From NCBI GenBank assembly GCA_036924285.1, contig JAYKYS010000017.1:3515501-3579500 (forward strand): 64,000 nt of DNA, given 5' to 3'. This DNA is from Asterella californica (lineage: Eukaryota > Streptophyta > Marchantiopsida > Marchantiales > Aytoniaceae). This document shows positions 9,862 through 64,000 of the stretch, in pieces. A model generated the notes under the pieces. The model worked only from the letters and a program-made list of their open reading frames with translations. It was not told where the DNA came from and made no database searches. A program made the position numbers and the translations under genes. How positions within the stretch are numbered: position 1 is the stretch's first letter; every line of letters starts with the position of its first letter.

Positions 9862-9876
9862 TCGTTTGAATTCGTA

Positions 9877-10881: not shown

Positions 10882-10896
10882 ATACGTGAAGGTTAC

Positions 10897-11852
10897 ATGG
10901 GTGATGACCAAGAGAAGGAGTACCTGGAACAACTCAAGCGAGGAGTGAAGTTGCAGAACATGCAGCTAAGACATGGTTTACTCATGTTCAAGCAAAGTCG
11001 GGTTTATGTGGGACAAGGAAAACTTCGGACTAAGTTACTCAAAGAATGTCATGATGCACCCTTATCAGGCCATAAAGGAGAAAAGTCCACTTTAGCAGTG
11101 ATAGCTAAAAAGTTTTATTGGCTCCACATGAAAGACGATGTTGCCCACTTTGTGAAAACATGTGTAACCTGTCAAGCGAACCGCGTTTCTTATAAGAAGA
11201 AACAAGGGTTACTTCATCCTCTGCCGATTCCAGCCAGACCTTGGGAAAGCATTAGCATGGACTTCATTACCTCTCTGCCTGACTCGAATGGATACAATGC
11301 GATTTTTGTGATAGTTGATCGGTTTAGCAAACTAGCGAAGTTTGCTCCGACCTTGGTACTGCAACAGCGTTCACGACTTCTCGGTTGTTCCTAGATACTT
11401 GGTGGCGTTGACATGGATTACCCCGGAGTATTATTTCAGACCGAGACTCTAAGTTCACAAGTGTCTTTTGGAAACACTTGTTCCAAAAATTGGGGACTAA
11501 GTTAAAATTTAGTACCGCCTTTCATCCGGAAACAGATGGACAAACAGAACGAGTTAACTCGGTTCTGAATCAATACTTGAGGAATTATGTCAGCGCGGTT
11601 CAAACTGATTGGGTGGAGTGGCTCAGTCTTGCGGAGTATTGCTACAATTCCACGAAGCATTCAGCAACCGGTGAATCGCCTTTCTTGCTGGCTTACGGAC
11701 GTGAGTCAGAAGGGCCTCTTGACTTGACTCTTGCAGGGAGTTCTACATCGGCACAACCAAGAACACGGCAAACATCAGCTGAAGAGTTGGTGGCGGTAAT
11801 GCAGCGGCGCGAGGAGCAAGTCAAGAAGAACCTCGAGAAGGCGCAGCAATGA
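10897..11852 (+). pseudogene. Integrase of chromovirus A
   Basis: 10897-11394 encodes the zinc-binding HHCC region (H-D-A-P-L-S-G-H-K, then C-V-T-C) and the first catalytic Asp in S-M-D-F-I-T. A one-base deletion near 11356, relative to B and C, shifts the frame. 11478-11852 resumes with H-P-E-T-D-G-Q-T-E-R-V-N carrying the catalytic Glu; the second Asp lies between, in the shifted stretch. The frame ends at TGA (11850-11852), a CGA codon in copy C. Role: strand transfer of cDNA into chromatin. Confidence 0.85.
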
Positions 11853-11885
11853 TACACGAAGCAGGTAAACAAGCATCGGCGGCAA

Positions 11886-12335
11886 GTGAAGTTCCAAGTG
11901 GGTGAAAAAGTATGGTTAAGTGCGAAAAACTTCACACTTCCGAAGGATATATCGGCGAAGTTTTCATCGAAGTTTGCGGGACCTTTTGTCATTGTCAAGG
12001 ATCCGCACGAAGACGTCTATACCTTAGACCTTCCTCGCGAGTGGCAGTTGCATCCGACTTTCCATGTTTCTTTACTAAAGAAACACTTCAAGGATGATTT
12101 GCGACCGGAGCGCAAACCGGTTCTTAGGCCTCAACCTGATGTCGTGCAAGGCGAAGCAGAATATGAGGTGGAGTCCATTTTGCGATCTCGGCATAAATCA
12201 AACCGGATGGAGTACTTGGTCAAATGGAGTGGTTACCATTTGAAGGAAGCAACTTGGGTGCCAGAGGAAGATCTCACACATGCGAGCGAAGCATTGGACC
12301 TCTTCAAGCAGAGACAAGGACAACAAGAGCGTTAG
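11886..12335 (+). CDS. Integrase C-terminal domain with chromodomain, chromovirus A
   Basis: 149 codons in frame with the preceding integrase after the 11850 stop. Residues 1-60 are the integrase C-terminal SH3-like part (V-G-E-K-V-W-L through P-T-F-H-V-S-L-L-K). The chromodomain spans about 93-140: Y-E-V-E-S-I, then Y-L-V-K-W-S-G-Y, then A-T-W-V-P-E-E-D-L. The aromatic residues expected for methyl-lysine binding are present. Chromoviral chromodomains are thought to direct integration toward particular histone marks. The ORF ends naturally with TAG. Confidence 0.88.
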   Translation: MKFQVGEKVWLSAKNFTLPKDISAKFSSKFAGPFVIVKDPHEDVYTLDLPREWQLHPTFHVSLLKKHFKDDLRPERKPVLRPQPDVVQGEAEYEVESILRSRHKSNRMEYLVKWSGYHLKEATWVPEEDLTHASEALDLFKQRQGQQER

Positions 12336-13064: not shown

Positions 13065-14144
13065 TGTCGCGCCCCTCATTCTCAAGATCGGGCGCAGACG
13101 CGAACAACAGAACCCTAGCGGACTTGCGCTAGGTTGTGAACGCTGCGAGTGAGACTTAACGGCTTGGCCGGCAAGTCGGGATCAGATGAACCAAGGTTAG
13201 AACCTTGGGTTAGGACATAAGGGCCTACCCCAAGAGGACCCCAGACGAACGCTGACCTAAGGAGACGAGTCTGGGAACAGGCTGAAACATGAGTCTCAGA
13301 CATAGGTCTGAGACGTGGGTCCGAGACGCAGACGAACCACAGGGTTCGACCCTGGGTCTGGACCACAAGTTTCAGAAAACCTGCTAAGTGTTGGAGCTCC
13401 AGGGACGTTTTAGGTCGTGGACGGAGCTCTACGTAAGATGTCGAGGCGAGTGAGGTATCATTGGAAAGGTCTCGTCGAGAGCTTTCCAGTGATATATAAC
13501 ACTCGTCGATGTGACCTTTGAGCTGGAAGTTATGACCGAACCACAATCGGGTTGTGGTATAATTTTCAGGGACCAAAGAGGAGGGCGGGGCCGCCGATCC
13601 CAGAAGTATATATGAGGGGGGCTCGATGCCTGGGTGGGCCAGGACGAGTCATCCGACCTCAGGGTTCGGCGGGCGGACTCTGGAGGCATGAGGTGATGGC
13701 TGGGCCGGTTCCAAGGCACGTTCCGATCCAGACTTGGACGTCTGAACTTAGGAACGATGTAAGGGCTGGGGCAAGACTAGGGAACGAGTCGGCGGGTTAG
13801 ACCATCGTTCGGGAGCCTAGACCTAGACGGACATCACGGGCGGTTGGGCCGCTAGGTGTGCTGGAGGCACCGTTTAGGACCCTGGACTTTATGGGAAGTC
13901 CGCCCCAAGTCATATTGTGACTTGCTCATGTTTGGGACCGACTTAGGCGGATCTGAGTCGGGACTCAGGATTGCTGAGCTTGATGATTAGGGAGACGGTC
14001 CGGCTCCGGTCCGGATTAAACAGAACTAAGGTAAGTGGTTCATGGACGCTAACTTGTGATTGTGTTTGCAGGTTAGCAGTGTAAAGTTTGCGACCTATTA
14101 AGCTAGAGCTTCCGCTGGCGCAACAAGGCGGTAGGTGCGCGAAA
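13065..14144 (+). repeat. 3' LTR of chromovirus A
   Basis: 1080 bp, beginning TGTCGCG and ending GCGCGAAA. Same internal landmarks as the 5' LTR (minisatellite about 13294-13335, TATA-like box 13607, hairpin about 13456-13500). It is followed by CAGGT, near-match of the 5' flank CAAGT. Antisense open frames here are by-products of its composition. Confidence 0.92.
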
Positions 14145-26785: not shown

Positions 26786-27924
26786 TGTTGCGACCCTCAT
26801 TCTCAAGATCGGACACAGACGCGAACAAAGAACTCAACCGGACTTGCGCTAGGTTGTGAACGCTGCGAGTAGGACTTAACGGCTTGGCCGGGAAGTCGGG
26901 ATCAGATGAACGCTAAGTGGTTCTCTGAACCAAGGTTGGAACCTTGGGTTAAGACATAAGGGCCAACCCCAAGAGGACCCTCGACAAACGCTGACCTAAG
27001 GGGACGAGTTTGAGAACGGACCGAAACATGAGTCTGAGACATAGGTCCGAGACGTGGGACCGAGACGTGAGTCCGAGACGCAGATGGACCGTGGTTCGGA
27101 CGTTGGTCCGAACCACAGGGTTTGAGTCTGGGTCTGGACCACAGATTTCTGAAAAATGGCTAAGTGTTGGAGCTCCATGGACGTTTTTAGGTCGTGGACG
27201 GAGCTCCACGTAAGATCTCGAGGCGAGTGGGGTATCATTGGAAAAGTCTCGAAGAGAGCTTTCCAGTGATATATAACACTCCTCGATCTGACCTTCGAGC
27301 TGGAAGTTATGGCCGAACCACAATCGGGTTGTGGTATAATTTTCAGAGACCAAAGAGGAGGGCGGGGTCGCCGATCCTCAGAAGTATATATGAGGGGGGG
27401 CTCGATGCCTGGGTGGGCCAGGACGAGTCACTCGACCCCAGGGTTTGGCGGGCGAACTCTGGGGGCATGACGTGATGGCTGGGCCGGTTCCAAGACACGT
27501 TCCGATCTAGACTTGGACGTCTGGACTTAGGAACGATGTAAAGGCTGGGGCAAGACTAGGGAACGAGTCGGCGGGTTAGACCACCGTTTGGGAGCCTAGA
27601 CCCAGACGGACATCACGGACGGATGGGCCGCTAGGTGTGGTGGAGGCACCGTTTAGGACCCTCGACTTTATGGGAAGTCCGCCCTAAGTCATCTTGTGAC
27701 TGGCTCATGTTTGAGACCAACCTAGGCGGGACTAGGTCGGGACTTAGGAACTGCTGAGCTTGTTGATTAGGGAGACGGTCCGGCTCTAGTCCGGACCAAA
27801 CTGAGATAAGATAAGTGGTGCATGGACGCTAACTTGTGATTGTGTTTGCAGGTTAGCGGTGTAAAGTTTGCGACCTACTGAGTTAGAGCTTCCGCTGACG
27901 CAACAAGACGGTAGGTGCGCGAAA
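26786..27924 (+). repeat. 5' LTR of chromovirus C
   Basis: 1139 bp, TGTTGCG to GCGCGAAA. TATA-like box at 27385, 13-bp minisatellite at about 27030-27080 and the TATCATTGGAAAG hairpin at about 27231-27275. Confidence 0.92.
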
Positions 27925-29181: not shown

Positions 29182-29601
29182 GATGACTGTGACCTTGAGA
29201 ACCACGAAGAAGACGCCGTGATTGATGTTTCTACAAGCCAAGGTTGCTAACCGTGATGTTACTTTTCTTGTGGACACAGGAGCGACTCACTCCTTCATAA
29301 GTCCAAAGTTGGTGAAGAAGTTGGGCTTGTCTACCTCCAAGGCAGACAAGCCTATTCAGGTGCGCTTTGCCAAGGGCAAGACGTACCAAACTTCTGAAGT
29401 AGCTTTGGACGTACGATTTGTGTGTGGGAAGTTGGAGTTCACAGAAAACTTCACGGTGTGCGAGATGGATGATATCCATGCGGTTTTGGGGAACACTTTC
29501 TTGGACAGGTTTGAAGTAGAACTTAGGCGGAAACCTTTAAGGTTAAACGTTAGAGTTAAAGGACGGAAGCTGGGAGTGAGGCTGATCCGGAAGGCGTAGA
29601 A
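29182..29601 (+). pseudogene. Aspartic protease, chromovirus C
   Basis: Open from 29222 after a TGA at 29219 (GGA in other copies). The active site is canonical D-T-G-A-T-H-S, unlike A and B, which read D-I-G. V-L-G-N-T-F-L-D-R-F-E-V follows. It ends at TAG near 29599, where A and B have CGG. Confidence 0.85.
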
Positions 29602-29617
29602 AATTGATGACTTTGCG

Positions 29618-30574
29618 GTGAATTTGATCAAGGACAAACAGATGGACTTCAACGATGGGGTCATGTGTTTGATTCGGGTTGCATATTTAATGGCGCCTGA
29701 CAGACAAGAGGAAACATTAGGAGACGCGACTAAACTTCTGGAAGTGCTTCACAAAGTGATTACGGAGTTTGAGGATGTCTTGACGGATGAGTTACCTGCT
29801 GAGTTACCTCCAAGGCGGGTGGTGGATCACAAGATCGAAGTCTTGCCAGGATCGGAACCACCTTCCAAAGCCTCTTATCGACTCAATCAGGTGGAACTCC
29901 TTAAGTTGAAGAGACAACTCGGCGAGCTATTAGCGCGGGGATATATTCGAACCAGCAAGTCACCTTATGGAGCCCCAGTTCTTTTTGCAAAGAAGAAGGA
30001 TGGGAAGTTACGACTCTGTGTAGATTATCATGCACTTAATAAGGTGACGGTGAAGAATAATTATCTTTTGCCAAGGATAGACGACCTCTTTGATAGGTTA
30101 GCGGGCGCAAAGTACTTCAGCAGGATAGACTTGAAGTCAGGATATTACCAGATCCGGATAGCTGACCCAGATGTTGAGAAGACCGCTTGTCGAACCAGAT
30201 ACGGATCGTTTGAATTCGTGGTGATGCCATTTGGACTTTGCAACGCCCCTTCGACGTTCACTACATTGATGAACACAATTTTTTGCGAGGAGATGGACGA
30301 GTTTGTCATCGTTTACATCGACAACATCTTGATCTACTCCAAAACCTTGGAGTCGCACGCGGAGCAGCTAAGAGTGGTGTTGACGAAGCTGGGGGAGCAT
30401 AAGCTGTTTGCCAATATTGACAAGAGTGAGTTTGGTTTGGAGCGCATTAACTTCTTGAGACATGTCATTAGTGCAGAAGGAGTCGGCCCAGATATGCAGA
30501 AGGTGGACGCAATTGTGACTTGGGAGCCTCCAACTACAGTGACAGGGATGCGGCGATTCTTAGGATTGGTGTAG
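29618..30574 (+). pseudogene. Reverse transcriptase, chromovirus C
   Basis: 318 open codons covering nearly the whole RT. The catalytic box reads Y-I-D-N: the second Asp codon (GAC in A) is AAC at 30323-30325, a G-to-A change that should abolish polymerase activity. It ends at TAG (30572-30574) where copies A and B have CAG. Confidence 0.88.
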
Positions 30575-30589
30575 TTCTACCGCAAGTAT

Positions 30590-31216
30590 GTGAAGGGGTT
30601 TTCAAATATCGCGAAGCCGTTGACGGATTGGACGGGCAAAGATGCACATGTAAGTTGGACCACGGATGTGGATGATGCGTTTCAGACGATCAAAGCTATT
30701 TTGTCAAAGGCGTCGGTTTTGAAGCTGCCGGAGTTCGACAAACCATTCGAAGTACATACCAACGCGAGCGACTATGCGATTGGTGGAGTGTTGGTGCAGG
30801 ATGGAAAATCTGTAGCGTACGAAAGCAAGAAGCTATCTGGGACAGAGAGTCGATGGCCGACTCACGAGAAGGAACTGTTTGCGGTGGTTCATTGCTTGAG
30901 GAAATGGTGGCATTACTTGGGACTTCACAAAACCTAAGTGTATACTGACAATATTTCGTTCAAGTACTTTGAGACACAGGATCGGTTGACGCCAAAGCAA
31001 CTACGGTGGCATGATACCTTGGCGCTCATGAACGTGGAATTAATCCACAAAGCGGGAAAGGACAATGTGGTTCCTGACGCCTTGAGTCGCAAGGAGGAAT
31101 ATCTTCCATCGTCTACACAGATTTTGCGGGCTATGTATCCTAAGGAGTCAGACTTGGAGAGACGAATACGTGAAGGTTACATGGGCGATGAGCAAGCGAA
31201 GGAGTACCTGGAATAA
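30590..31216 (+). pseudogene. RNase H, chromovirus C
   Basis: Two open pieces (to 30937 and from 30938) separated by TAA (CAA in A and B). Catalytic start reads T-N-A-S-D-Y-A-I-G-G (Asp to Asn, G to A). E-L-F-A-V-V-H and Y-T-D-N are present. It ends at TAA (31214-31216), CAA in A. Confidence 0.85.
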
Positions 31217-31228
31217 CTCAAGCGAGGA

Positions 31229-32620
31229 GTGAAGTTGCAGAACATGCAGCTAAGACATGGTTTACTCATGTTCAAGCAAAGTCAGATTTATGTGGGACAA
31301 GGAAAACTTAGGACCAAGTTGTTAAAAGAATCTCACGATGCGCCCTTATCAGGCCATAAAAGAGAAAAGTCCACCTTAGCAGTGATAGCTAAGAAGTTTT
31401 ATTGGCCCCACATGAAAGACGATGTTGCCCACTTTGTGAAAACATGTGTAACATGTCAAGCGAACCGCGTTTCTTATGAGAAGAAACAAGGGTTGCTTCA
31501 TCCTCTGCCGATCCCAGCCAGACCTTGGGAAAGCATTAGCATGGACTTCATTACCTCTCTGCCTGACTCGAATGGATACAATGCGGTATTTGTGATAGTT
31601 GATCGGTTTAACAAACTAGCGAAGTTTACTCCGACCTTGGACATTGCAACAGCGTTCATGACTTCTTGGTTGTTCCTAGATACTTGGTGGCGTTCACATG
31701 GATTACCTCGGAGTATTATTTCAGATAGAGACTCTAAGTTCACAAGTGCCTTTTGGAAACACTTGTTCCAAAAATTGTGGACTAAATTAAAATTTAGTAC
31801 TGTCTTTCATCCGGAAACAGATGGGCAAACCGAACGAGTTAACTCGGTTCTGAATCAATACTTGAGGAATTATGTGAGCGCGGACCAGAGTGATTGGACA
31901 GAGTGGCTCAATCTTGCGGAGTATTGCTACAATTCCACGAAGCATTTGGCAACCGGTGAATCGTCTTTCTTGCTGACTTACGGACGTGAGCCAGAAGGGC
32001 CTCTTGACTTGACTCTTGCAGGGAGTTGTACATCGGCACGACCAAGAACACGGCAAACATCAGCTGAAGAGATGGTGGCGGCAATGCAGCGGCGCGAGGA
32101 GCAAGTAAATAAGAACCTCGAGAAGACGCAGCAACGATACACGAAGCAGGTAAACAAGCATCAGCGGCAAGTGAAGTTTCAAGTGGGCGAAGAAGTATGG
32201 TTAAGTACGAAAAACTTCACACTTCTGAAGAAAATATCGGCGAAGTTTTCATCGAAGTTCGCTGGACCTTTTGTCATTGTCAAGAATCCGCACGAAGATG
32301 TCTATACGTTACACCTTTCTACCGAATGGCAGTTGCATCCGACTTTCCATGTTTCTTTATTGAAGAAATACTTCAAAGATGATTTGCGACCGGAGCGCAA
32401 ACAGGTTCTTAGGCCTCAACCTGATGTCGTGCAAGGCGAAGCAAAATATGAAGTGGAGTCCATTTTGCGATCTTGGCGCAAATCAAACCGGATGGAGTAC
32501 TTGGTCAAATGGCGTGGTTATCATTTGAAGGAAGCCACTTGGGTGCCAGAGGAAGATCTCGTACATGCGAGTGAAGTATTAGACCTCTTCAAACGGCGAC
32601 AAGGACAACAAGGACGTTAG
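31229..32620 (+). CDS. Integrase with chromodomain, chromovirus C (intact ORF)
   Basis: 463 codons, the longest intact pol piece of the family. HHCC zinc module: H36, H43, C73, C76. Catalytic triad D106, D166 and E202, with 35 residues between the last two (DD35E). The SH3-like C-terminal part follows to about residue 390, then a chromodomain at about 405-455 (Y-E-V-E-S-I, Y-L-V-K-W-R-G-Y, A-T-W-V-P-E-E-D-L). The apparent start is only the first codon after a nonsense mutation; in a working element this is the end of the polyprotein. All integrase catalytic residues look intact. Confidence 0.9.
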   Translation: MKLQNMQLRHGLLMFKQSQIYVGQGKLRTKLLKESHDAPLSGHKREKSTLAVIAKKFYWPHMKDDVAHFVKTCVTCQANRVSYEKKQGLLHPLPIPARPWESISMDFITSLPDSNGYNAVFVIVDRFNKLAKFTPTLDIATAFMTSWLFLDTWWRSHGLPRSIISDRDSKFTSAFWKHLFQKLWTKLKFSTVFHPETDGQTERVNSVLNQYLRNYVSADQSDWTEWLNLAEYCYNSTKHLATGESSFLLTYGREPEGPLDLTLAGSCTSARPRTRQTSAEEMVAAMQRREEQVNKNLEKTQQRYTKQVNKHQRQVKFQVGEEVWLSTKNFTLLKKISAKFSSKFAGPFVIVKNPHEDVYTLHLSTEWQLHPTFHVSLLKKYFKDDLRPERKQVLRPQPDVVQGEAKYEVESILRSWRKSNRMEYLVKWRGYHLKEATWVPEEDLVHASEVLDLFKRRQGQQGR

Positions 32621-34159: not shown

Positions 34160-35076
34160 GCAAGTCTGGAAACGGACCGGAACATAAGTCTGAGACGTGA
34201 GTCCGAGACACGGGACCGAGACGTGGGTTCGAGACGCAGACGGACCGTGGTTCAGACGCTGGTCCGAACCACAAGGTTCGAGTCTGGGTCTAGACCACAA
34301 GTTTCCAAAAAATGATTAAGTGTTGGAGCTCTAGGGACGTTTTAGGTCGTGGACGGAGCTCTACGTAAGATCTCGAGGCAAGTGAGGTATCATTGGAAAG
34401 ATCTCGGCGAGAGCTTTCCAGTGATATGTAGCACTCCTCGATCTGACCTCCGAGCTGAGAATTATGACCGAACCACGATCGGGTTGTGGTATGATTTTCG
34501 GGGACCAAAGAGGAGGGCGAGACCGCCGATCCCCAGAAGTATATATGAGGGGGGCTCGATGCCTGGGTGGGCCAGGACGAGTCACCCGACCCCAGGGTTC
34601 GGCGGGCGGACTCTGGGGGCATGAGGTGATGGCTGGGTCGGTTCCAAGGCACGTTCCGGTCCAGACTTGGACGTCTGGACTTAGGAACGCTGAAAGCGCT
34701 GGAGCAAGACTAGTGAACGAGTCGGCGGGTTAGACCACCGTTTGGGAGCCTAGACCCAGACGGACATCATGGGCGGTTGGACCGCTAGGTGTTCTGGAGG
34801 CACCGTTTAGGACCCTAGACTTTATGAGAAGTCCGCCCCAAGTCATCTGTGACTTGCTCATGTTTGGGACCGACCTAGGCGGGTCTAGGTCGGGACTTAG
34901 GGAATGCTGAGCATGATGATTAGGGAGATGGTCCGACTCCGATCCGGACCAAACTGAGATAAGATAAGTGGTGCATGGACGCTAACTTGTGATTGTGTTT
35001 GCAAGTTAGCGGTGTAAAGTTAGTGACCTACTGAGCAAGAGCTTACCTGGCGCAACAAGGCGGTAGGTGCGCGAAA
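34160..35076 (+). repeat. 3' LTR of C', right piece
   Basis: Continues the LTR interrupted at 26785, starting with the duplicated GCAAG. It contains the minisatellite, hairpin (about 34385-34430) and TATA-like box (34540) and ends GCGCGAAA. Confidence 0.88.
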
Positions 35077-35168
35077 GAGGTCCAATTCCTTGATGAAAGG
35101 TTTGACCGTGATCAGCTCCGCTTGTAGTAACACCAACCCTTGAGGATGCATCGACATTTTGAGCTTCG
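35077..35168 (-). other. Short F-family internal remnant
   Basis: On the minus strand this follows the end of LTR F2, where a leader/gag start would be. It is too short and degraded to call a gene and is cut off by C'. Confidence 0.35.
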
Positions 35169-40449: not shown

Positions 40450-42121
40450 TCAAAAGATGCTAGAGGTAAAATAAGAGTAAGAGACCAACGACCCCCCTCT
40501 AGCAAGCATCACATCTTCTGATTCCTTGAAAATGTCTCTGTACATGGTTGGCCACCAGTAGCCAGCATCCAACATCTTCTTCACCGTTGTCTTCACTCCA
40601 TAGTGACCGAGATACTGTTGGTCTTCCAAGAACTTCCTCAAGTCCTTGAAGATTGATTCCTTTGTGAAAGTCGCAAAGACCGGATCAGAAGACCTAGTCT
40701 CGTCTTCTAGGAAGCAGGCGGTACGCCTCCCCTCAAATGAGAGTGTCTTTGCAGAAACTGAAAATAGCTTCTCGTCAGAGAACTCATCTTCCACTTCATC
40801 TTTTCGTCGCTCTGTCTCCAATCTGGATAGGTAGTCAGCATTAACATGTTGTCTTCCAGGCCTGTACTCCACTGTGTAAGTAAATTCCTGGAGTAGAAGA
40901 ATCCACCTAGCTATCCTACCAGACAAATCTGCTTTCTTTACTAGATGTTTCAAAGAAAAATGATCCACATAGAAGACAAATGGGTTTGTCAGAAGATAGT
41001 GTCTAAACTTCCTACAGGAGTAAATCATGCCAAGACACTCCCTTTCAGTTGTAGAGTACTTCTTCTCTGCATCACTGAGTTGTCTTCCCGTATAGTAGAT
41101 GAGATAATCGTTCTTCTTCTCACCTTTCTGAATCAATACCACTCCTATGGCAAAAGCAGAAACATCCACGTAAATGTGGAAGACTCTCTCCCAATCAGAC
41201 GGTCTTAGGATAAGGGATTTTGATAGAAATCTTTTCATTTCTTCAAACTCTTCTTGCTGCTCAGAAGACCAAATGTAAGGTTCGTCCTTCTTCAGCAACT
41301 TGATGAGTCTTCCTGCTACTTCTGCATACCTGTCAATAAACCTCCTGTAGTATCTTACGTTGCCCAGGAAACTTCTCAACTGAGTCAAGTTAGCAGGTGG
41401 GTGAAGTTTCATGATAACTTCCACCTTAGCACAGTCGACTTCTATACCGCTTCCAGAAATCCTATGTCCTAGAAAAATTCCTTCTAACATACCAAAGAAG
41501 CACTTCTCATGGTGAAGAGCCAAGCGATGCTCTCTACACTTCAAAAAACACTTCCTCAGAAATATCAGGTGATCTTCTTTCGATCCAAACACACAGAAGT
41601 CATCCAAGAAGATCTCCATGAAAGTGCAAAGATACTCCTTGAAGATCGTGATCATGAAATGTGATGGGTGCTTTGCATAAACCAAACGACATTTGGTTGT
41701 ACGCGTACGTGCCCCAATCAGTGGTAAAAGTGATTTTTGACTTGTCTTCTTCTCTGATTGAAACTTGGTTGTACCCCGAATACCCATCCAGGAAGCTGTA
41801 GAACTCATGTCCGGCTACCTGGTCTAACACAGAATCGGTGAAGGGTAAAGGATGATGATCCTTTTTTGTGACCAAGTTCAGCTTCTGAAAGTCCTGACAC
41901 ACTCGGATCTTACATGTTTGCTTCTTCGGCACGATGACAATAGGAGCTACCCACTCACTACTAAGTACTGGGAAGATGACTCCTGCCTTCAGATATTGAT
42001 CGATCTGATCCTTCACCAGAAGCGAGTACTGCCTCTGCCGTGCAGGAACAACATCTTCCAGCAAGTCAATACGATGCTCTCTCAGTTCTCGAGGTATGCC
42101 CTTCATGTCTTCTATGGTCAA
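40450..42121 (-). pseudogene. Reverse transcriptase-RNase H of element F
   Basis: Two overlapping frames. 42121-41690 has the RT fingers (K-I-R-V-C-Q-D-F-Q-K-L-N, F-L-D-G-Y-S-G-Y-N-Q, M-S-F-G-L-C-K-A-P). 41680-40450 has F-L-D-D-F-C-V-F-G, the thumb (L-R-S-F-L-G-N-V-R-Y-Y-R-R-F-I), RNase H (Y-V-D-V-S-A-F-A-I-G, T-E-R-E-C-L-G, Y-V-D-H-F-S-L-K-H-L) and the histidine half of the integrase zinc module. One frameshift, near 41650-41690, separates them. RNase H reads D-V-S where D-A-S is usual. Confidence 0.85.
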
Positions 42122-42132
42122 GCGAAGACGTC

Positions 42133-42528
42133 CTAGAACTCTGTCAAAAGTTCTCTAAAGTCTTCCAACTGTTGGCCCTCGATCACTTTGGAAAGCTTCA
42201 GTTTCTTCCCATGAGCAACCTCTATTTCTTGAAAATCATCAGAGCTCACCATTCCTTCAGTGTGACTGTACTCACTGGCATCAAAATATTCCGGTTTGGG
42301 AGCTTCTTCCGGTTCAGATTCGTCTTCTAGAAGATCAACTAATTGGTCTTCCGAAGAGAAGATAATACTTTCGTCTTCTGGAAGACTAACTAACTGATCT
42401 TCCGAAAGGAAGACGATACTTTCGTCTTCTGGCAGCTCTTCTTCCGCAATTTCATAGCACTCAATGTATCCACAGATCACTTCTTCTGCTATCTCTGCTA
42501 CTTCTATAGTACACAAGTTATTCACCAC
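42133..42528 (-). pseudogene. Acidic linker of element F with Glu-Asp repeats
   Basis: 131 open codons between protease and RT. It contains a tandem peptide repeat of about 16-17 residues (L-P-E-D-E-S-I, S-E-D-Q-L-V), two full copies and part of a third, encoded by GAAGAC-containing DNA. No known domain. It connects in frame order to the protease upstream. Confidence 0.6.
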
Positions 42529-42540
42529 AAACTCATCATA

Positions 42541-43032
42541 TCATTCATCAATGTCAGAAGACGCAGCTGAGTCTTCTGACGTGTACCCCTCAGTCGTAGA
42601 GGGAGTTTCACCTTGATGTCCAATCTTCATCCAAGGGAGTGAGACTTTGGTCTTCTCACCCGGCTTGAGTGTAGGATTGGGAAACCTCAAATGATGTCTT
42701 CTCCAATCGATATTTACATTTGCAGCATACAGCCATGGTCTTCTTATCAAAACCTGATATCCAATCTTAGCTATAGGTCGCAAAATGATGTAAGTGAGGT
42801 AAAAAGATACTCCTCCAATTACCGTCAAGACATCTTTCAGTTGCCACAAAGGTCGTCTTCTGGTCTGATCCATCATTCTGAGGATTCTCGGAGTAGGTTG
42901 GAACTCAGTGAAGCCTAGGGCATGCACAGTTTCTTCAGTCATGATGTTAACTCCGGAGCCAGAATCAATGGGTACCTTCTTCAGAAGACAATCATGGATC
43001 TCCATCAAGTTCTGGGGCTCCCAAGTCCTCAT
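42541..43032 (-). pseudogene. Aspartic protease of element F
   Basis: 163 codons open. Active-site loop I-D-S-G-S-G-V-N-I-M (D-S-G type) at about residues 21-31, later I-R-R-P-W-L (the flap-distal motif of this group), then the N-I-D-W-R-R-H-H-L-R-F-P end. Upstream frames are broken. Confidence 0.75.
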
Positions 43033-43842: not shown

Positions 43843-45879
43843 TATATCATTGCTAGCTCGAGTTTATACGCACTTATTGTGAGCCGAAGACTCAGTCCTT
43901 TCCAAGTCCTCACATTCTAGCTTCCACTCTCAGAAGCCGAATCTAGTCTTTCCAGAAGACAGCTATTCCGTCTTTCGAGATTCTAACAATGCTTCCTAAG
44001 TAGCTCTCGTCTTCCGCTATATCTAAACAATCCTAACTAAGCAAGGCATCGCATGGATTCTCAAGAAGACAACCCACCTTGCATTTCATCCTACTTCCTA
44101 ACAGAGGATACAAAATATGAGAGAAGCAAATTGTATGAGAAGTTCAGAAGATGGTCGTGGGCTCCTGTTGTGATAGTGACCTCTAGGAAGACTCCCGAGA
44201 CAACTTCCGATTCAATGACATTCTCGGACGACTTCCTGCAGCCAGGCTTCCCTTCACTGGTCTCATCTATCTTCTGCTTCCGACACGCAATCTAACCTCA
44301 CAACAGACACAAGACATTCATACTCTGTTCTTCCAACTTCTCACCTCTCATACAAACTCAGAAGAAGCTTGTTGCATGACGGGAAGACATGACCCTCAAC
44401 CATTCTCTCCAGATTCTGTCAGCAAGACTTCTCACAACTCTCTTCTATGTTCGTGAAGAAGAAGAAGGAATAGGCTGCTATGGGTCGGACAAAAGAGACC
44501 CGTAAAAGACCGTCACGTCTTCTCGCACATTTTACCAGCCTTTCCAATCTTCTAGTCTCTCTAGGATTATGTGGATTTGAGAAGCTTGGAAGATCGGGAG
44601 ACACAGGCCTGGTTCCCAACTTCCAGCTTCTCGAAACAACAAACAACTCACCAAGTCACTCAGGATTCATACTAAGCATCTCTCAACACAAAACCCAATC
44701 CAATCCACTCTTGATACGAATTGCACATAGTCGTCTTCCGAAGACGTTCAGATGTCCAGAAGCGTCTTTCGAAGATGTTCAGATCTTTCGAAGCGTCTTC
44801 TGTCTAGAGGTTCAGGAGAAGAGATGCGGTAGGGTAGGAAAATTGATAGCTACGAGATCGAATTAGAGAATGAGAGACAGGGAAGCTCGATTACAGCTCG
44901 AGAAGAAGTGAGAAGATGGATGTCAAAAATTAGGCAGCGCTTCCGCACCCAATTTTACAGAGAGAAATTTTGAGATGGGAAAAGCGATCGATGGACTTCC
45001 TGCAAACAAGCGGAGAAGCGCGGGGAACACTAAACTAGAGGCGAGAAGCGGTGAGAAGGGGAAAGAACATGGGAAGAACCTCAAATAGTCTTCTGGCTGC
45101 TTCATGTAGTGTCTTCAGTCTTCTACGTGCTTCCGGCTCCACCTCAGCTTCCAATGCGATCCCACAGAATCGTCCTATCGTCGATTCTAAGCTACGTCTT
45201 GCTGCTTCCTTAATCGATCAGTGCTCCACCTTCGATACTTCTTCAATCGTCCTTCAATGTCTACTTCCGAGAATCTACAAGGGACTCCTTCAGCTCGATG
45301 GTGCTTCTTGCTCTCACAGAATCGTCTTCTCGCTCTCTCTCTAGCCTTGATTCGATCCTTGCTATCCATGATTTCACTACTCCTTGCTTCCAGGTCCAAT
45401 TCGACATCCTGATTGCAATCGACCTCCTAATGCGCAATTGCCCTTCGATGCGAGAAGCGATCAGCTGATTTCGTGCTAATGTGCCTTCTCCCGTATCTTC
45501 CTTGCGCGATTAGGGGTTTGACCTCCTTGACCTACCTACTACCATGGTGGATATCTGATAGGTACACCTACCTCCCTCCTAGGTGGTGCGTGGTTGATGA
45601 CCATGTAGTCACGGTCGCTGTCGCTGTCTTCTGGAAGACACGCGTCTTCTGTCTTCCGTCTTCCGTCTTCCGAAGACCTGATCGAGAAGACGTCTTCTCG
45701 AAAGACGTCCTTCTTCCGTCTTCGGAAGACGTCCTCTTTTTTTACAACAAGTTCTTAACACCATCTATCTTCTAAGCAAGATGTAATCTTAAGCAACAAG
45801 GTTATTTCAATTACACAGACATGTTATTAACTTCAAAAATTTCAAAGATTTATAAATCCTGTAAATTGTGAGCACCACA
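43843..45879 (-). repeat. LTR F4, 5' LTR of element F
   Basis: Starts TGTGGTGCTC at 45879. The end near 43843 is approximate because it diverges from F1 in the last 40 bp. 45640-45740 is exceptionally dense in GTCTTC/GAAGAC. Shares its last 300 bp closely with F1 (22430-22710). Confidence 0.75.
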
Positions 45880-56515: not shown

Positions 56516-56896
56516 TGTCATGTCTGTTTAGCATCTCGGTTAGGTTGACCGAGTGAGAAGAGATAGGTGGGCTCAGTAGGAGCAAGATTAGGCAGGTTGG
56601 CGTCATGTGATGACGAGATTTCGACGCTCTGGTTAGAGCTTAGTGTTCGCAATTGACACGAGGGTTGTTATCACAAAGGTACATGGAGGTTCCGGCGGAG
56701 ATTCAGCTGTAGTAAGCAGTGGGTTCACACGGAGTGGTATGAGGTACCAACCAGTAACACCGGTCTCGTTGACGGAGGATATCAATTCAGACAGACGTGG
56801 TTGGAGGTACACATAATGTCATCACATCATTGTTGTAGGACATGGACGAGACTTATAAGATCATGAAGGGGCCTCGATGATACTCAAGTATGATGA

Positions 56897-58037
56897 TGTC
56901 ACGACCCTCATTCTCAAGATCGGGCTCAGACGCGAACAACAGAACTCTAACGGACTTGCGCTAGGTTGTGAACGCTGCGAGGAGGACTTAAACAGCTTGG
57001 CCGAGAAGCTAGGATCAGATGAACCCTAAGTGGTTCTCTGAACCAAGGTTAGAACCTTGGGTTAGGACATAAGGGCCTACCCCAAGAGGACCCCAGACAA
57101 ATGCTGACGTAAGGGGGCGAATCTGAGAACCGACCAAAATAGGAGTCTGAGACATAGGTCTGAGACATGGGTTCGAGACGTGGGTCCGAGACGCAGACGG
57201 ACCGTGGTTCGGACGCTGGTCCGATCATAGGGTTCGAGTCTCGGTCTGGACCACAGATTCTTGAAAAAATGAACGAGTGTTGGAGCTCCAGCAACGTTTT
57301 AGGTCGTGGACGGAGCTCCACGTAAGATCTCGAGACGAGTGAGGTATCATTGGAAAGGACTTGTCGAGAGCTTTCCAGTGATATATAACACTCCTCGAAC
57401 TGACCTCCGAGCTAGAAGTTATGACCGAACCAAGATCAGGTTGTGGTATAATTTTCAGGGACCAAAGAGGAGGGCGGGGCCGCCGATCCCCAGAAGTATA
57501 TATGAGAGGGGCTCGATACCTGGGTGGGCCAGGATGAGTCACCCGACCTCAGGGTTTGGCGAACGGACTCTAGGGGCATGAGATGATGGCTGGGTCGGTT
57601 CCAAGACACGTTCCGATCCCGACTTGGATGTCTGGACTTAGGAATGATGTAAGGGCTAGGGCAACACTAGAGAACGAGTCGGCGGGTTAGACCACCGTTC
57701 GGGAGCCTAGACCCAGACAAAAGTCACGAGCGGTTGGGCCGCTAGGTGTGCTGGAGGCACCGTTTAGGACCATGGACTTTATGGGAAGTCCGTCCCAAAT
57801 CATCTTGTGACTTGCTCATGTTTTGGGACCGACCTAGGCGGGTCTAGATCGGGACTTAGGGAATGCGGAGCTTGATGATTAGGGAGACGGTCCGGCTCCG
57901 GTCCGAACCAAAGTGAGATAAGATAAGTGGTGCATGGACGCTAACATGTGAGGGTGGTTTGCAGGTTAGCGGTGTAAAGTTTGCGACCTATTGAGCAAGA
58001 GCTTCCGCTGTTGCAACAAGGCAGTAGGTGCGCGAAA
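56897..58037 (+). repeat. Solo LTR of the chromovirus family
   Basis: 1141 bp, TGTCACG to GCGCGAAA, flanked by GATGA (56892-56896) and GATGG (58038-58042), a target duplication with one mismatch. No internal region or primer site follows. TATA-like box at 57497. It sits inside the 5' part of element I and so is younger than it. Confidence 0.88.
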
Positions 58038-58040
58038 GAT

Positions 58041-58970
58041 GGGTACCATTGAGCTGGATGACTTAATCCAAGAGTTCAACAGTTGGTGCGATCTACAACA
58101 GATGCGGAACCCACAACTGTTCACACCCTTCATGACGTGGAAGAGTTTGTTTCAACACTTGGAGGGATTGCCGATGGACGATTACCATGAGTTCAAATGA
58201 GACTACATCGTGGAGATTGAGTTGTGGAGGCATCATTGGTCTCCCAACTATGTTTCTATCACTATTGACGCAGTTTCGGGAGGCTAGCACCTATGAGTTC
58301 GGGTGTTAGTAGTAGTGATACATCCACGAATGGCGGAGTATCTATTACCGACGGTGCGTCCACTAGTAGCGGAGCAAGGGGTAGTATGAGCAGGATACCA
58401 TCAGGGTTTAACCTTGTGGTTCAGTTCTTCCAGTGTTTGAGAGAGAACTATCAAGGTGTGCGGATCGATAAGTTAAGGAGTCTGCAGGAGTTCCAGCGAA
58501 AGACTAGAGAGAGCCTACGTGAGACGTTTACTCACAAGAGACGGTTGATCAACGTTACCCAAGGGGTGACGAAAGCACAATCAGTCCAGTTTTGATATGA
58601 GATACTGGATCGAGAGTTCCGTAGGAGAGTTAGAGATGAGACTCTTCTTAGAGACATCGCTTCGACGTTGACGATTGTCTTTGGTTTGGCTGAGCGGATT
58701 AAGCTCAACATGGTGGAGGAGATAGTGATGATTGTTGGGTTCAGTAAGGAGGTACCACATGATGACCACCTCTTCTCGAGGATCACAAGCTACACAACAT
58801 CGTGATGGTGGTGGTGCTAGGGATCATGCTGAACAGTCACGATCTCAAGGAAGTGTTGGAGGACCTAGTGGGCAAAACCCGATGCCGTCTTTCTCTAATC
58901 ACTTGCAAGTGGTCCTCATCAGTAGAAAAAGGAAAAGTGATTACGAGGCATTTAGAACATCTCAAGCGAT
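58041..58970 (+). pseudogene. Gag of element I
   Basis: 58293-58595 is open for 100 codons and continues in frame after a TGA (58593, probably a former TGG) to about 58750. It contains an L-R-S-L-Q-E-F-Q-R-K-T-R-E-S-L-R-E-T-F region and L-D-R-E-F-R-R-R-V-R-D then A-E-R-I-K-L-N-M-V-E-E, typical of a retroelement capsid. A frameshift near 58750 moves to the frame that carries the zinc knuckle. An earlier piece (58041-58200) may be the gag N-terminus. Confidence 0.65.
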
Positions 58971-58980
58971 GCCTAGGCAG

Positions 58981-59022
58981 TGTGAGTATTGCGGACGATC
59001 AGGTCACAATAGTGATCATTAT
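58981..59022 (+). other. Degenerate zinc knuckle of element I
   Basis: C-E-Y-C-G-R-S-G-H-N-S-D-H-Y: spacing of C-X2-C-X4-H-X4-C with the last Cys replaced by Tyr (a G-to-A change from TGT would do this). Confidence 0.7.
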
Positions 59023-59810
59023 TTTGATCTCCACCTCGTGCTATAGCAAGAGAAGGCTAATCGTGGACGAGATGGAGGAGCTCAGAGAGCCATGGTAGTC
59101 AAGCCGGAGGTAGAAGTTCAGCATCAAGGAGAGGAACAATCGGTCCACCGTCCGCTATAATATCATATGCGGGTATGGTCCTCGGATTGAGCAGTTGGAG
59201 CAAATGATAGCTAGTATGACTATGGCTCAACGGAGGTCTAGTTCAGGAATAGAGACTTTCACATCTTATGGAGGAGAAGGAGTTGACTTCGACTTCATGG
59301 TTGGTGTGATGCAGATTGAGACATCTGCGGCAGTGATTCAGGATGCAGTACGTGTCTCTGAACCACGAGGTGCGTCGGTGGAGTTGGATCCACAATGCGA
59401 GGAGGCTGGTAGACAGACCAAGCTTCCTCAGTCATTCGTGCTATTGGAGGCGTTGAGGACCACGTCTATGGTTCCTAAACGGCCTATGACGATGCAGTGG
59501 AGTTGGAGACATCGACATCCATGAGTGAGGGTGATGCGAGTCAACCCTCGATGTCTGTGGATGTGACATCAAACTCGATGTTGGGGCGACTACAACAGTC
59601 TTGCGAGCTGCACTATTTCAGCCACAAATATGAGGACATTGGGAGTTAGCTTAGTACCAGTGTTCATGTAGTTACCTCTAGTGTTGAGGTGGTTCAGCGA
59701 GAGACGGTAGATGTGTTCATGTAGTCGAGATCAGGATGGCTACTCGTGGTACTTGACAAGCGGCGGCTGTCAAGTTAGATGAGTTACCAGCTAGACCGGC
59801 AATTGACCGT
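59023..59810 (+). pseudogene. Gag-protease linker of element I
   Basis: One 109-codon open stretch (59195-59524) rich in Thr, Ser and Glu, otherwise interrupted by stops. No domain recognised. Confidence 0.4.
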
Positions 59811-60240
59811 GCTGGTTTGGTACCAGGTGTGGTGTTGTTGGACAACAAAAGTGGTATCTTTTGTCTAGTACCACCTTCATGGAAGGTGTATCGACCACAG
59901 AAAGTCTTGGTAGACTCTGGAGCACAGTCGTTGATGTTGAGAGAGACGGCGTGTATTGGTTTGGGTCTGAGGAAGTTCGAGGGGAGAGATGTTCATTCCA
60001 GCTACAGACATCTCTAGGAGGTTCAGGAGGTACAGCTCTACACATGACACGTGAGATCGATCAGATCATCCGACATATGGCTCTATGGTGAAGGTCAAGG
60101 CCATCGTTACAGCTGTGGAGTCTTATGACGTATTGGTTAGAGGTGTTGTGTTATACCTTACAGGGTTCGTGATCGACTATTGGACGGAGACAACATCTTA
60201 TAGATCATGTTGGCAGTCCGGTGAGGGACGAGTGAGCCGT
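59811..60240 (+). pseudogene. Aspartic protease of element I
   Basis: Active-site loop V-L-V-D-S-G-A-Q-S-L-M-L at about 59908-59943. The middle continues in a second frame (T-R-E-I-D-Q-I-I-R near 60050), and from 60085 a third frame gives V-K-A-I-V-T-A-V-E-S-Y-D-V-L-V-R-G and W-T-E-T-T-S-Y-R, the C-terminal half. At least two frameshifts. The last frame leads on to the methyltransferase. Confidence 0.72.
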
Positions 60241-60540
60241 TTACTAGTGCGATCTAGTGCTAGAGTTGAGACAACGGAGCCTACACCAGAGACGACGACA
60301 TCCGTTGCAAGGTTCAGTTTGATCATCACTATGTCAAGCGTGTTGTTAGAGGATAATATCTATGCGGAGAATACTCCGGTCTTTGAGGAGGTGGGAGACA
60401 TGTCTAGCATGACTATGGTAGAACCATCTGCCTTGGATGCTCCATTCTAAAGTTCGAATGGAGAGTTGTAGCAGTATGTTGATCGGTTGGGACAGTAGGC
60501 TTGGAGTGAAGTCTTTGTATCGTCAGTAGAGGAACAAAGG

Positions 60541-61270
60541 GTTGTTCCTACTACTGGTCTTGTTATCTTATCATCGTTGGATACGACTCTCATTGTATGG
60601 CAGTATCCAGAGGAGCGTGTGTGTGTGCTGGAGTTGTTTGGAGAGATCAACATAGGTTTGACTGCGGTATTGCAAACAAGCATACGAGTACATTGATACT
60701 TGTATGTGGAGAGAGATGAGATTGTGAGACGCATATCATTGCGTCATGCGGCACGTTTGGTGCAGAGGTATCATGAGTTGTTGCTTATATCAGCTATCAG
60801 AGGATATCAACAAGCATTACCGTCAGATATTTTGCTGTTGGGGATGCAAGATCTCAGGTTTGTTGACACCATTCTCTTGGTGATAGCCGGATGGCCATGT
60901 CAAGATCACACGCGTATTGGGAGAGGTCAGGGTTTACATGATTCACGATCTAGTATGTTTTGGGAGATGTTACGGATCTTACGATATCTCTAGATGCATC
61001 AGTGGATTCTTCAACGTACATCTTGGAGAACGTTCTTTTGTTAGGTGATGCTCGTACACAGATGATGACGAGTATGCACCAAGTGCAGCCATGGGTTGGA
61101 CCGGGAGTGCTGTTGGATGCGGTGAGTGTGGGATCTCGTGCACATCATCCATGATTGTGGTGGACAAACTTGTTATCGAGAGAGGTGCTTAAGCGCACAC
61201 ATGATGGAGTGAGATGACCAACACATCTCACGGTTGATGACATCTTGGATATAGAGACAAGTAGTGAGAG
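60541..61270 (+). pseudogene. C5 cytosine DNA methyltransferase in retroelement I (broken)
   Basis: Motifs in the canonical order of C5 methyltransferases. Motif I region 60625-60657 (V-L-E-L-F-G-E-I-N-I-G, a damaged F-x-G-x-G). Motif IV at 60886-60960 with G-W-P-C-Q, catalytic Cys at 60898-60900, then R-G-Q-G-L-H-D-S-R-S-S. Motif VI Y-I-L-E-N-V (ENV at 61026-61034). Motif VIII G-S-R-A-H-H-P at 61131-61151 followed by L-W-W-T-N-L-L. In-frame TGA at 60694 and 61152 replace expected Arg codons; TAG at 60991 and a one-base shift just after it separate motifs IV and VI. The first half is in frame with the protease end. A target-recognition region and motifs IX-X are not clearly seen. It would have methylated cytosine in DNA, perhaps the element's own cDNA. 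Confidence 0.82.
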
Positions 61271-61290
61271 TCGTCGATAGATCACTTATG

Positions 61291-62539
61291 AGAATGATGA
61301 ACTTAGTGGGACCACCCATGACATCGTTGCTCACTTTGGTGAGCTTTCCAACTTGACATGCTTACAGAGATGGAGGACAATATTTACGAGGGTTCTAGGG
61401 TTCTATCTGCAAAATTTTAAGAAGGCATCAAGAGACTATCCAAAAATTTTAGTATAATTTGCAGGACTTAATAAGGTTTTGGGATGGATTTTTGGATTGA
61501 AGAGGGTGAAAGGAAAGAGTAACTTAGCTTTGAACGACCGTAGTTTCCTCTATAGAGTTCAGTTTCTAACATGCTTGATAACGTTAGGACGAAGACGACG
61601 AGATTTCTAATGTCATCTCAATTGCATTATTTGGAGCCATCGTTAGAGAACTATATGGTTTGAAGTTCATCAGGAACTTTGAGATTACATGTCAAAGTTT
61701 GTTTGAGGGCTCGTGCAAATTTCAACGAGGAAGACACTTGAAGGCTAAAGAGATGACAATCTATGCGAGGTTTCTTCAAGGAAAGGTTTGAATCTTACAA
61801 GTAGATGTAGCTCAGACTACAAGGGTCAGTTTGAGATGAACTTGGTATCATTGGATAGAGTTTTTTCAAGAGTTTTTCTGTGACACCAAAAACACCAGAT
61901 TTTGAGGTTTGAGGTTTAGGATTTTTAGACTTTACATCAAATCTATGCGAGAGTTCGTGCAGATTTCAGTGAGAAAAGGTACCTCAGGGTTAGGAGGCAC
62001 AATCTACGTGTGGGTTCGCACAAACTCTTTCACTAAGGGGTCTGAAGGACTCAAACGGCCGTAACTCAGATTACAGATATCAGTTTAGATCAAGATTGGT
62101 ATCATTGGATAAGGTTTTAGGTTTCTTGGTGACACCAAAATCATCGGATTTTGAGCTATGAGATAGAAGTTGCAGGCGTTTGAAGTTCGTCGAGATTTTT
62201 ACCGGTACGTCAAAATTGTGCAGGGGCTCACGCAGTTTGATAGTTGAGAGGGGGTTGTGAAGGTTGGAGTACATATTTCCAACCTTCACAAAGCTCGTGA
62301 AGATTCACAAAGAAGAAAAGATTTGATGACTTTGATCGGCCGTAACTCGAGTTGTAGAAGTCAACTTGGACTGAAAATGATACCGTCGAAAAGAGAGCAC
62401 GAAGAGCTTTCCAAAGACACCAAGAATGATGTATTTTGATGTGTTAAGAGATATTTGCACGATTTTGAAAGTAGAGAGACGTTTCAAGCTTGAGCGGCAA
62501 ATCTCCACGAGGGCTCGTGCAAATCCTACCAAAGGAAGA
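61291..62539. repeat. Non-coding tract with diverged internal repeats
   Basis: Three to four loosely spaced, diverged units (about 61790, 62050, 62330) each contain CGGCCGTAACTC or a variant, GGTATCATTGGATAAGG-like words, a GTGACACC word and short stem-forming CACGAGGGCTCGTG-type sequences (for example about 62499-62513). No ORF of note. It may be the degraded downstream part of element I or a flanking element's LTR. Confidence 0.5.
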
Positions 62540-63054: not shown

Positions 63055-63057
63055 ATT

Positions 63058-63300
63058 GTCACGTCAGTTTGGTACCTCGGCTAGGTTGACCGAGTGCGAA
63101 GTGGCGCATCCCGATAAGACCGTTAGTGCCGTTAGGGCGAGTTGGTGGGAGAGCCCACTAGGGGTATACTTCACAGGTAGGGCTTGGAGGCCTTAGTTCT
63201 TCGAGTTGAGCCTTCAAGCTCCAGGCTATGGTGGATAGTCTAGTTGAGTGTAACCCGGATTCTCTTCGCGTTTAGAGTGGGTTTGACTTGACCGTTTGTG
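63058..63300 (+). mobile_element. Second I-type element start
   Basis: TGTCACGTCAGTTTGG and the following GGCTAGGTTGACCGAG word match the left end of element I (56516-56560) for about 45 bp, then diverge. Probably the terminus of a related element inserted into LTR F6. No coding sequence follows within the window. Confidence 0.45.
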
Positions 63301-64000
63301 AGTAATCTTTGTTGTAGTGTTGGAGATGGTAATTTCTCAATGCAGATTATTGTGGTACACATGTGTATGTGTATGACATCGTCCATGTGTTATGTGTATG
63401 TGTGGTGTATCTCTGACAGCGATGTATGTTGTGTAGCGATGTGTATGCGCACGACACAGACCAGGATGGAAGCAGCGTTCAGATTAAAGATAAAAGTGTA
63501 GACGTAAAGAGCAACACTATGTTATCTATAATAGACTGCTCTTTCTATATACAGAAGACATCTAGTGCATTGGTAAGAGTCAGAGCGTGGAGACTCAACT
63601 ACCTGAGTTCGATCTTCACTCAGACTGAAGAAACCCGTGAATGTAGAATAATAAGCTTTCGATTGGAGTACATTTCCATCCAAAGAAACATCAAATGCTG
63701 CTGGAAACTTTCAATCTCTCCTTAGAAAGACTTAGATTAAGCTTAAATGATTAAGCTGATAAGATGTGTTAATGACTTACGTTTACAGGGGTGTGTTTAT
63801 GATTTGGTTCTATCTAGACCTTGCGAGGAGACTACATGATTCGTTACAGTTCGAAAATAATGTGTCAGAATAATATATTCAGACCTCAATACATAGAACA
63901 AACTGAGGAGGTGGTGAATATACAGTCCTGTCCCACGACCGATAGATGAGAATGTTCAAGGATTTTTGTCTGAGACAATCTTCATTGTGCCCTTAAGTTT
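63301..64000. other. Unassigned right edge
   Basis: Includes a TGTGTATGTG-rich patch at 63359-63405 and a tRNA-like segment (listed separately). No gene recognised. Confidence 0.4.
63555..63640 (+). other. tRNA-like segment, possible SINE head
   Basis: An A-box-like TAGTGCATTGG at 63563-63573 and a B-box-like GAGTTCGATCT at 63605-63615 are about 31 nt apart, as in tRNA genes and tRNA-derived SINEs. A full cloverleaf with a good acceptor stem is not evident, so it is not called a functional tRNA. Confidence 0.35.

Follow-up and report, generated by a model that had tools for sequence, protein, structure and literature searches.

What is a cytosine DNA methyltransferase doing beside a retroelement protease in a liverwort genome? 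The question arises from a stretch of 64,000 nucleotides of Asterella californica (contig JAYKYS010000017.1, positions 3,515,501 to 3,579,500 of the forward strand; hereafter the window), in which a first-pass annotation had proposed, from the letters alone, a gag-protease-methyltransferase polyprotein. What lies there is the decayed remnant of a Ty3/gypsy-like retroelement carrying a DNMT3-like cytosine methyltransferase. As we read the family, one frame encodes gag, protease and the DNMT3-like enzyme and, beyond one in-frame TAG, a second encodes reverse transcriptase (RT), RNase H, an rve integrase and a PHD finger; we infer that the second part is made by readthrough and that insertion likely proceeds from circular DNA, and we give this reading a probability of roughly 0.7.

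Same-genome searches covered 516.7 Mb in 773 contigs and returned at least 123 matches to the methyltransferase family PF00145, at least three of which are host genes. With an 830-residue protease-methyltransferase piece (P0001) as query, the best 54 of 6339 first-look candidates were scored, a lower bound on copy number; all 54 are 91-100% identical to the query, 37 cross the protease-methyltransferase stretch without a stop, and many belong to open reading frames some 1370 codons long. In an intact copy of 9,816 bp (L039/L040/L059), the first open reading frame (ORF1, 1370 codons) encodes gag with two CCHC knuckles, a protease with D-S-G (both recognised by eye and from relatives) and the methyltransferase, while ORF2 (1041 codons), past one in-frame TAG, gives the Pfam order RVT_1, RT_RNaseH, Integrase_H2C2 and rve (L040:1-2643), followed by a PHD finger. 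The proposed polyprotein is thus supported, with RT and integrase downstream of the methyltransferase, where the first-pass annotation had suggested looking for them, and the protease-methyltransferase link is kept in other green plants. The methyltransferase is the sole Pfam match in the liverwort ORF1, no protease being reported there; in the relative P0024, gag-asp_proteas reaches 24.2 of 28.2 bits and Asp_protease_2 23.7 of 24.3 bits, both below the cut-offs, and both families are among the precomputed domains of the relatives P0035 and P0209. A Pfam scan of ORF1 and ORF2 at E ≤ 0.01 found no tyrosine recombinase family.

The boundary between the two frames was read in 36 loci, 33 of them distinct (L003 = L020, L004 = L009 and L008 = L018 are repeat fetches). 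The stop stands in TAG-CAG-TCA in 31 of the 33 and in TAG-CAA-TCA in one; in L015 the same letters are out of register through an indel, so that TAG-CAR-TCA is present in 33/33. TAG-CAA-TCA also separates the two frames in L106, a distant relative with 34% identity in ORF1 and 66% in ORF2. The tobamovirus-type readthrough context is UAG-CAR-YYA, and by analogy the liverwort boundary, which fits it, is predicted to be leaky; a leaky TAG would place the methyltransferase at gag level and RT and integrase at a lower level.

On its sequence, modelled fold and motif order, the methyltransferase is DNMT3-like. DNMT3A comes first among PDB sequences (38.5 bits), followed by HaeIII (21.2), chain 4onj, a plant DRM (18.1), and HhaI (15.6). 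The AlphaFold2 model, with a predicted local distance difference test (pLDDT) of 89 and a predicted template modelling score (pTM) of 0.89 from an input alignment of 23 rows, has DNMT3A and DNMT3B as its top fold matches among the families listed (Foldseek; VIA), DNMT1 being lower. The motifs run in the unrearranged order I-IV-VI-VIII-X in P0001 and in the alignment. DNMT3 is the class favoured by sequence and structure, ahead of DNMT1, and DRM is ruled out, since the rearrangement that places VI-X before I-IV, shown by the host DRMs L002 and L061, is missing.

In an alignment of 185 homologous domains, 179 of the 180 non-gap rows have the catalytic Cys, and 180 of 183 have the motif VI Glu; the motif IV Pro before the Cys is replaced by Glu in 126 of 181 element methyltransferases, giving Glu-Cys instead of Pro-Cys. 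Thirty genomic copies all retain the Cys and the Glu, 28 of them retain the second motif VIII Arg, and 20 have no stop across 830 codons. The median ratio of nonsynonymous to synonymous substitution rates (dN/dS) is 0.148 for the methyltransferase (range 0.12-0.45; 69 non-independent pairs with dS ≥ 0.05) and 0.150 for the gag-protease part (82 pairs, likewise non-independent), near-equal values by which constraint on the methyltransferase seems to differ little from that on the parts beside it. Host DNMT3 (L001) and the host DRMs (L002, L061) are separate genes outside the clade of element methyltransferases. At L001:1267-3321 a DUF3444 match lies downstream of the host DNMT3 exons in the same orientation, and the two may form one gene.

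The route of insertion is recorded in the terminal repeats. All 10 young copies read A1(294)-body-B1(108)-GC-A2(294)-B2(108), with A1 and A2 at least 99.66% identical; a lone A thus stands on the left and B-A-B on the right, and two complete long terminal repeats (LTRs) at the ends were found in none of them. Ordinary LTRs are ruled out, as B-GC precedes A1 in 0 of 25 readable left ends (30 fetched). The copies end in TGTC...GACA, of the TG..CA type, and 4-bp target duplications flank 10/10 in a first set (mispaired ends, 2/90). The second set comprises 20 stretches, four without A1, one starting inside A1 and 15 readable, and 14 of these 15 have the duplication (mispaired, 2/240), which brings both sets together to 24 of 25 readable insertions.

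Among 50 copies viewed at the 3' end, 29 are complete; the other 21 belong mostly to an older subfamily and include three with one B and four without a match. The B1-A2 joint is GACA-GC-TGTC in 29/29 complete copies and in 41 of the 46 with a readable B1 end, the rest being two one-base variants and the three one-B copies. The putative integrase site GACAGCTGTC lies here, inside the LTR if this is read as B-GC-A. The A2|B2 joint is exact in 21 of the 29 and altered in eight, by an additional base, filler or pieces of the polypurine tract found upstream of B1, and it varies among very young copies. The left end is readable in seven of these eight, each of which carries a 4-bp duplication; damage after insertion is therefore an unlikely source of the scars. 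A polypurine-tract remnant at A2|B2, together with a 4-bp duplication, is also present in L067, of the older subfamily. End-joined two-LTR circles of retroviruses carry such joint scars, and a constant B1-A2 with a scarred A2|B2 is what would be expected of two-LTR-circle joints. In the older subfamily (L062-L073, L079, L097), B and the palindrome are nearly the same and A is only about 80% identical.

A single series of steps would most simply account for this arrangement. The LTR would be B-GC-A, with the polypurine tract just 5' of B and the primer site just 3' of A, and ordinary reverse transcription would yield a linear copy with B-GC-A at both ends. Joining of these ends would produce a two-LTR circle with an imprecise A|B joint. 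The integrase would then make a 2-bp staggered cut in the internal palindrome GACA-GC-TGTC, generating two 3'-processed CA ends at once, and insertion of the opened circle would leave A1-body-B1-GC-A2|B2 between 4-bp duplications; the GC absent from the ends would correspond to the bases that 3'-processing removes. Encoded upstream of the predicted leaky stop, the methyltransferase would be made in gag-level amounts, packaged, and could methylate CpGs of the new DNA; the part toward host silencing that the first-pass annotation raised is a hypothetical one.

The same architecture was followed in protein searches that gave at least 42, at least 162 and at least 379 matches per query, about 8000 top word-sharing candidates being scored for each and the best 120 at most retained; among the matches listed, the closest relatives are from Marchantia, Calypogeia and Riccia, which, with one LFY match, point to a liverwort. 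Domain order was read in 270 proteins, two of them the liverwort element's own frames. Type I, with the methyltransferase between protease and RT, occurs in liverworts, Sphagnum, Klebsormidium, Closterium and metagenomes, and type II, with the methyltransferase between RNase H and integrase, in Chlamydomonas eustigma, Haematococcus, Tetrabaena and metagenomes. Where one protein holds both enzymes, the methyltransferase precedes RT in 16 and follows it in 122. Proteins without a methyltransferase in the same frame number 46 with RT-RNase H-integrase-PHD and 13 with RT-RNase H-integrase, and their methyltransferase may be encoded in a different frame, the arrangement seen in liverworts. A Klebsormidium homologue, P0219 (protease-methyltransferase-RT-RNase H-integrase), is 48% identical over 91% of ORF2 and is placed with type I by both trees. 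An IMG/VR scan gave one weak methyltransferase match (L107). The type II proteins P0036 and P0045 have a long additional C-terminal stretch past the PHD finger.

Trees were built on cluster representatives, namely 85 of 171 RT-RNase H rows plus an outgroup and 102 of 185 methyltransferase rows plus four references. One branch of the RT-RNase H tree (86 rows) splits types I and II with support of 100/99, leaving uncounted 12 rows, namely the outgroup and 11 whose type is unknown. The quick RT tree requires 3 changes for type II and 8 for type I when the unknown-type rows form a group of their own and a partial outgroup is counted in. In the methyltransferase tree all 102 element enzymes stand apart from the host DNMT3, the two host DRMs and human DNMT3A (100/99). 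The careful version agrees with the quick one, its bootstrap being unsettled and its rows P0248, P0252 and P0255 long; in it the type I enzymes form one clade (99/92). Type II does not lie on one side of a branch there (4 changes), a scatter expected if type I arose within type II, or from rooting and noise. These sequence trees, the methyltransferase one with its four references, fit one capture of the methyltransferase and one move within the polyprotein. In P0214 and P0216 no methyltransferase occurs between a weakly matched protease and the PHD finger; both fall inside type II on the quick tree, so elements can probably lose the enzyme.

The palindrome is not confined to the liverwort element. 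In L104, L105 and L106 the same palindrome lies 53-107 bp past an AGGGGGG tract, as in the liverwort element; L106 is type I, and L104 and L105, by their best matches, are nearest the methyltransferase-less members, on the type II side. Six-frame translation of L102-L105, which are partial contigs, revealed no methyltransferase. The longest word common to the liverwort element and L106 is 16 bp, the longest in 300 shuffles being 13. The distribution among L104-L106 suggests that the integrase site is likely older than the split between types and independent of the methyltransferase. These PHD-Gypsy elements (L102-L106: PWFW01000202.1, PUMO01000218.1, PUMO01000133.1, PWGU01000107.1 and CADCWO010000201.1) sit on contigs filed as bacterial or archaeal metagenome-assembled genomes (Halanaerobiaceae, Mollicutes, Halorubrum, Synechococcales), probably through algal contamination, and the same probably holds for P0097, filed as Minisyncoccia. 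Because the contig of L106 (1-9285) has 127 bp in common at its two ends, the assembled element can be closed into a circle, which its repeats would predict. At slightly better than even odds, these elements would form a retroelement clade reaching from chlorophyte algae to liverworts in which the integrase site moved from the LTR edges to an internal palindrome and insertion became obligatory from circles, closed by host end-joining and opened by one staggered cut; many members would carry a DNMT3-like enzyme captured once and moved once in the polyprotein, perhaps marking the circle.

Other explanations have to be set against this one. That a host methyltransferase gene or pseudogene came to lie by chance beside an old retroelement might be thought from the window copy, which is broken and ends inside the methyltransferase; the first-pass annotation had already judged such a neighbour unlikely, and it is hardly credible given that the protease-methyltransferase stretch is common to all 54 scored copies, the best of 6339 candidates, at 91-100% identity, that the link is kept in other plants and that host DNMT3 and DRMs lie outside the element clade, and the intact copies refute it. 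An unlikely account is a DIRS- or PAT-like cycle in which the internal B1-A2 block serves as a template joining the linear ends and the whole A1...B2, A2|B2 included, is copied through RNA. Split direct repeats do have the order A-coding-B-A-B, and the repeats of KnitGypsy-Dnmt3 were described as DIRS-like by its authors (PMC5890265, Fig. 4 legend). The proteins, however, carry rve and no tyrosine recombinase at the Pfam threshold given above, and the 4-bp duplications and TG..CA ends are marks of a DDE integrase; the target duplications rule out insertion by a tyrosine recombinase. Copying of the A2|B2 joint through RNA is disfavoured as well, because young copies differ there by polypurine-tract and filler scars that a copied joint would not show. 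Scarcely more probable are linear head-to-tail concatemers, two linear copies being end-joined and cut by the integrase at their internal sites: the product A1-body-B1-GC-A2|B2 and its scars would be the same, yet two molecules and two cuts are required and no data speak in favour.

A more serious alternative, though still a doubtful one, concerns the target of the methyltransferase, which may work on chromatin of the host where the element lands, the PHD finger steering the integrase, and not on the element's unintegrated DNA. The PHD finger follows the integrase and ends most RT-RNase H-methyltransferase-integrase proteins (101 versus 12 without) and most RT-RNase H-integrase proteins (46 versus 13), counts that may include truncated proteins. 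Against this, the liverwort type has its methyltransferase in the gag part and its PHD finger in the pol part, and in the other type the methyltransferase sits between RNase H and integrase.

Several observations weigh against insertion from circles with a packaged methyltransferase. One of the 25 readable insertions (L123/L085) has no duplication, and the site after A1 taken for the primer shows no match to a tRNA 3' end by eye. Three copies of the form A1-body-B, flanked by target duplications, could stem from a one-LTR circle or just as well from a subsequent B1 x B2 deletion, and we do not claim them as proof of one-LTR circles. The palindrome was checked in four families only, L102 and L103 having too little 3' DNA; methyltransferase-less relatives keep it, so the enzyme is dispensable for such insertion, which speaks against an essential role in that step. 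The KnitGypsy methyltransferase domain, the only relative assayed, showed no activity in yeast, a result that its authors deem inconclusive (PMC5890265).

In the window itself, tblastn of the intact ORF1 places the remnant at 56667-61377, with homology stopping inside the methyltransferase, before RT. The copy of this Ty3/gypsy-like, multi-copy family has no RT and carries a nested insert, stops and frameshifts; 58042-61378 is 82.9% identical to the intact copy L039 (blastn). The features are as follows.

56667-56886, plus strand: decayed beginning of the gag-protease-methyltransferase frame, matching ORF1 residues 4-78 at 55-61% identity (tblastn with the intact ORF1 as query).
56887-58038, no strand assigned: 1.15-kb repeat inside the element, with copies of 74-89% identity at 26791-27924, 7534-8657, 13065-14144, 34165-35077 and elsewhere in the window.
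58039-59729, plus strand: gag, ORF1 residues 81-669, in several frames (tblastn).
About 58978-59030, plus strand: degenerate CCHC-like knuckle in gag (read by eye).
59730-60058, plus strand: aspartic protease region, ORF1 residues 670-779, D-S-G at 59910 (tblastn).
60058-61002, plus strand: protease-methyltransferase linker and methyltransferase motifs I-IV, ORF1 residues 785-1099, with five in-frame stops and P-C-Q at 60895-60903 (tblastn).
61002-61377, plus strand: methyltransferase motifs VI (E-N-V, 61026-61034) and VIII (G-S-R-A-H, 61131-61145) in a different frame; the copy breaks off short of motif X.
63057-63456, plus strand: A-B terminal repeat belonging to the element's family (94.8% identity), no target duplication (flanks GCAT and CAGA).
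43870-45094, plus strand: unoccupied paralogue of the L039/L040 insertion site, 86% and 73% identity on its two sides, joint at 44595/44596 (blastn).

The first-pass annotation had described 60085-61290 as one frame running from the protease through the methyltransferase. Its five stop codons are exactly where it put them (60448 TAA, 60469 TAG, 60496 TAG, 60694 TGA and 60991 TAG), and a domain search confirms the enzyme class, the 98-residue open stretch between 60694 and 60991 matching PF00145 at 26.7 bits (E 4.8e-06, cut-off 22), more than chance. P-C-Q, E-N-V and G-S-R-A-H are all present; the single frame is not, since ORF1 residues 1100-1188 map to 61002-61268 in a frame differing from that of 60058-61002, the switch at 61002 falling between motifs IV and VI. 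The protease does not share the methyltransferase frame either, its D-S-G lying in yet another one, and the element extends well beyond the interval that was correctly taken to hold the methyltransferase. The insert at 56887-58038 is likely the solo terminal repeat of a different Gypsy family. GACA-GC-TGTC was found 0 times in the 64-kb window (0.06 expected), which fits a truncated copy. Further Gypsy-type elements or remnants lie on both strands at 757-5479, 8779-12335, 29222-32620 and 40450-43032.

If insertion from circles holds, this young family, whose complete insertions as examined bear a circle-type joint, would make circle integration testable in a living lineage, one also present in Marchantia, where genetic tools exist. 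Integrase use of circular instead of linear DNA would be an unusual mobility for such elements and would explain DIRS-like repeats in a Gypsy element. The RT-RNase H-integrase order with rve (DDE), short target duplications and TG..CA ends are Ty3/gypsy-like traits; lacking two end LTRs, the element is gypsy-like by domains only. DIRS, PAT and Ngaro elements, which use a tyrosine recombinase, have split direct repeats of the form A1-body-B1-A2-B2. The liverwort element shares these repeats and differs in having no recombinase reported in ORF1 or ORF2, and in its target duplications, TG..CA ends and variable A2|B2 joint.

The known precedent is KnitGypsy-Dnmt3 of Klebsormidium nitens (de Mendoza et al. 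2018, PMC5890265), described in that paper as a Gypsy pol with a Dnmt3-like methyltransferase under purifying selection and DIRS-like repeats. The liverwort element resembles it in its Dnmt3-like methyltransferase, Gypsy-type pol and A-coding-B-A-B repeats. Capture was there termed independent in the K. nitens lineage, whereas the element methyltransferases sampled here, from chlorophytes to liverworts, form one clade, so that the green-plant retroelement DNMT3s would be recast from a Klebsormidium case into one old lineage with two architectures. The main text of PMC5890265 does not contain the words PHD, readthrough or protease, its sole "stop codon" passage concerning premature stops; to that account the present data add a second methyltransferase position, the integrase site and the target duplications. 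Searches of titles and abstract starts in the open-access literature for a bryophyte case, PHD, split repeats with Gypsy or retrotransposon DNMTs found no report besides PMC5890265, and what appears new is the green-plant spread, the two methyltransferase positions, the predicted leaky stop, the PHD finger and the account of the DIRS-like repeats. SymbioDIRS-Dnmt3 of Symbiodinium, as presented in the same source, likewise has a Dnmt3-type methyltransferase in a retroelement pol and A-B-A-B repeats; it uses a tyrosine recombinase, in contrast to the rve integrase and 4-bp target duplications of the liverwort element. In retroviruses, DNA in the form of two-LTR circles is generally regarded as a dead end (PMC5314604). 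By analogy, the nearest precedent we found for the proposed insertion step is the spumavirus DDE integrase, reported to cut a palindrome of two-LTR circles and process both ends together (PMC1180852). The spumavirus palindrome is the LTR-LTR joint, whereas that of the liverwort element lies inside the LTR, so that the inserted element is permuted.
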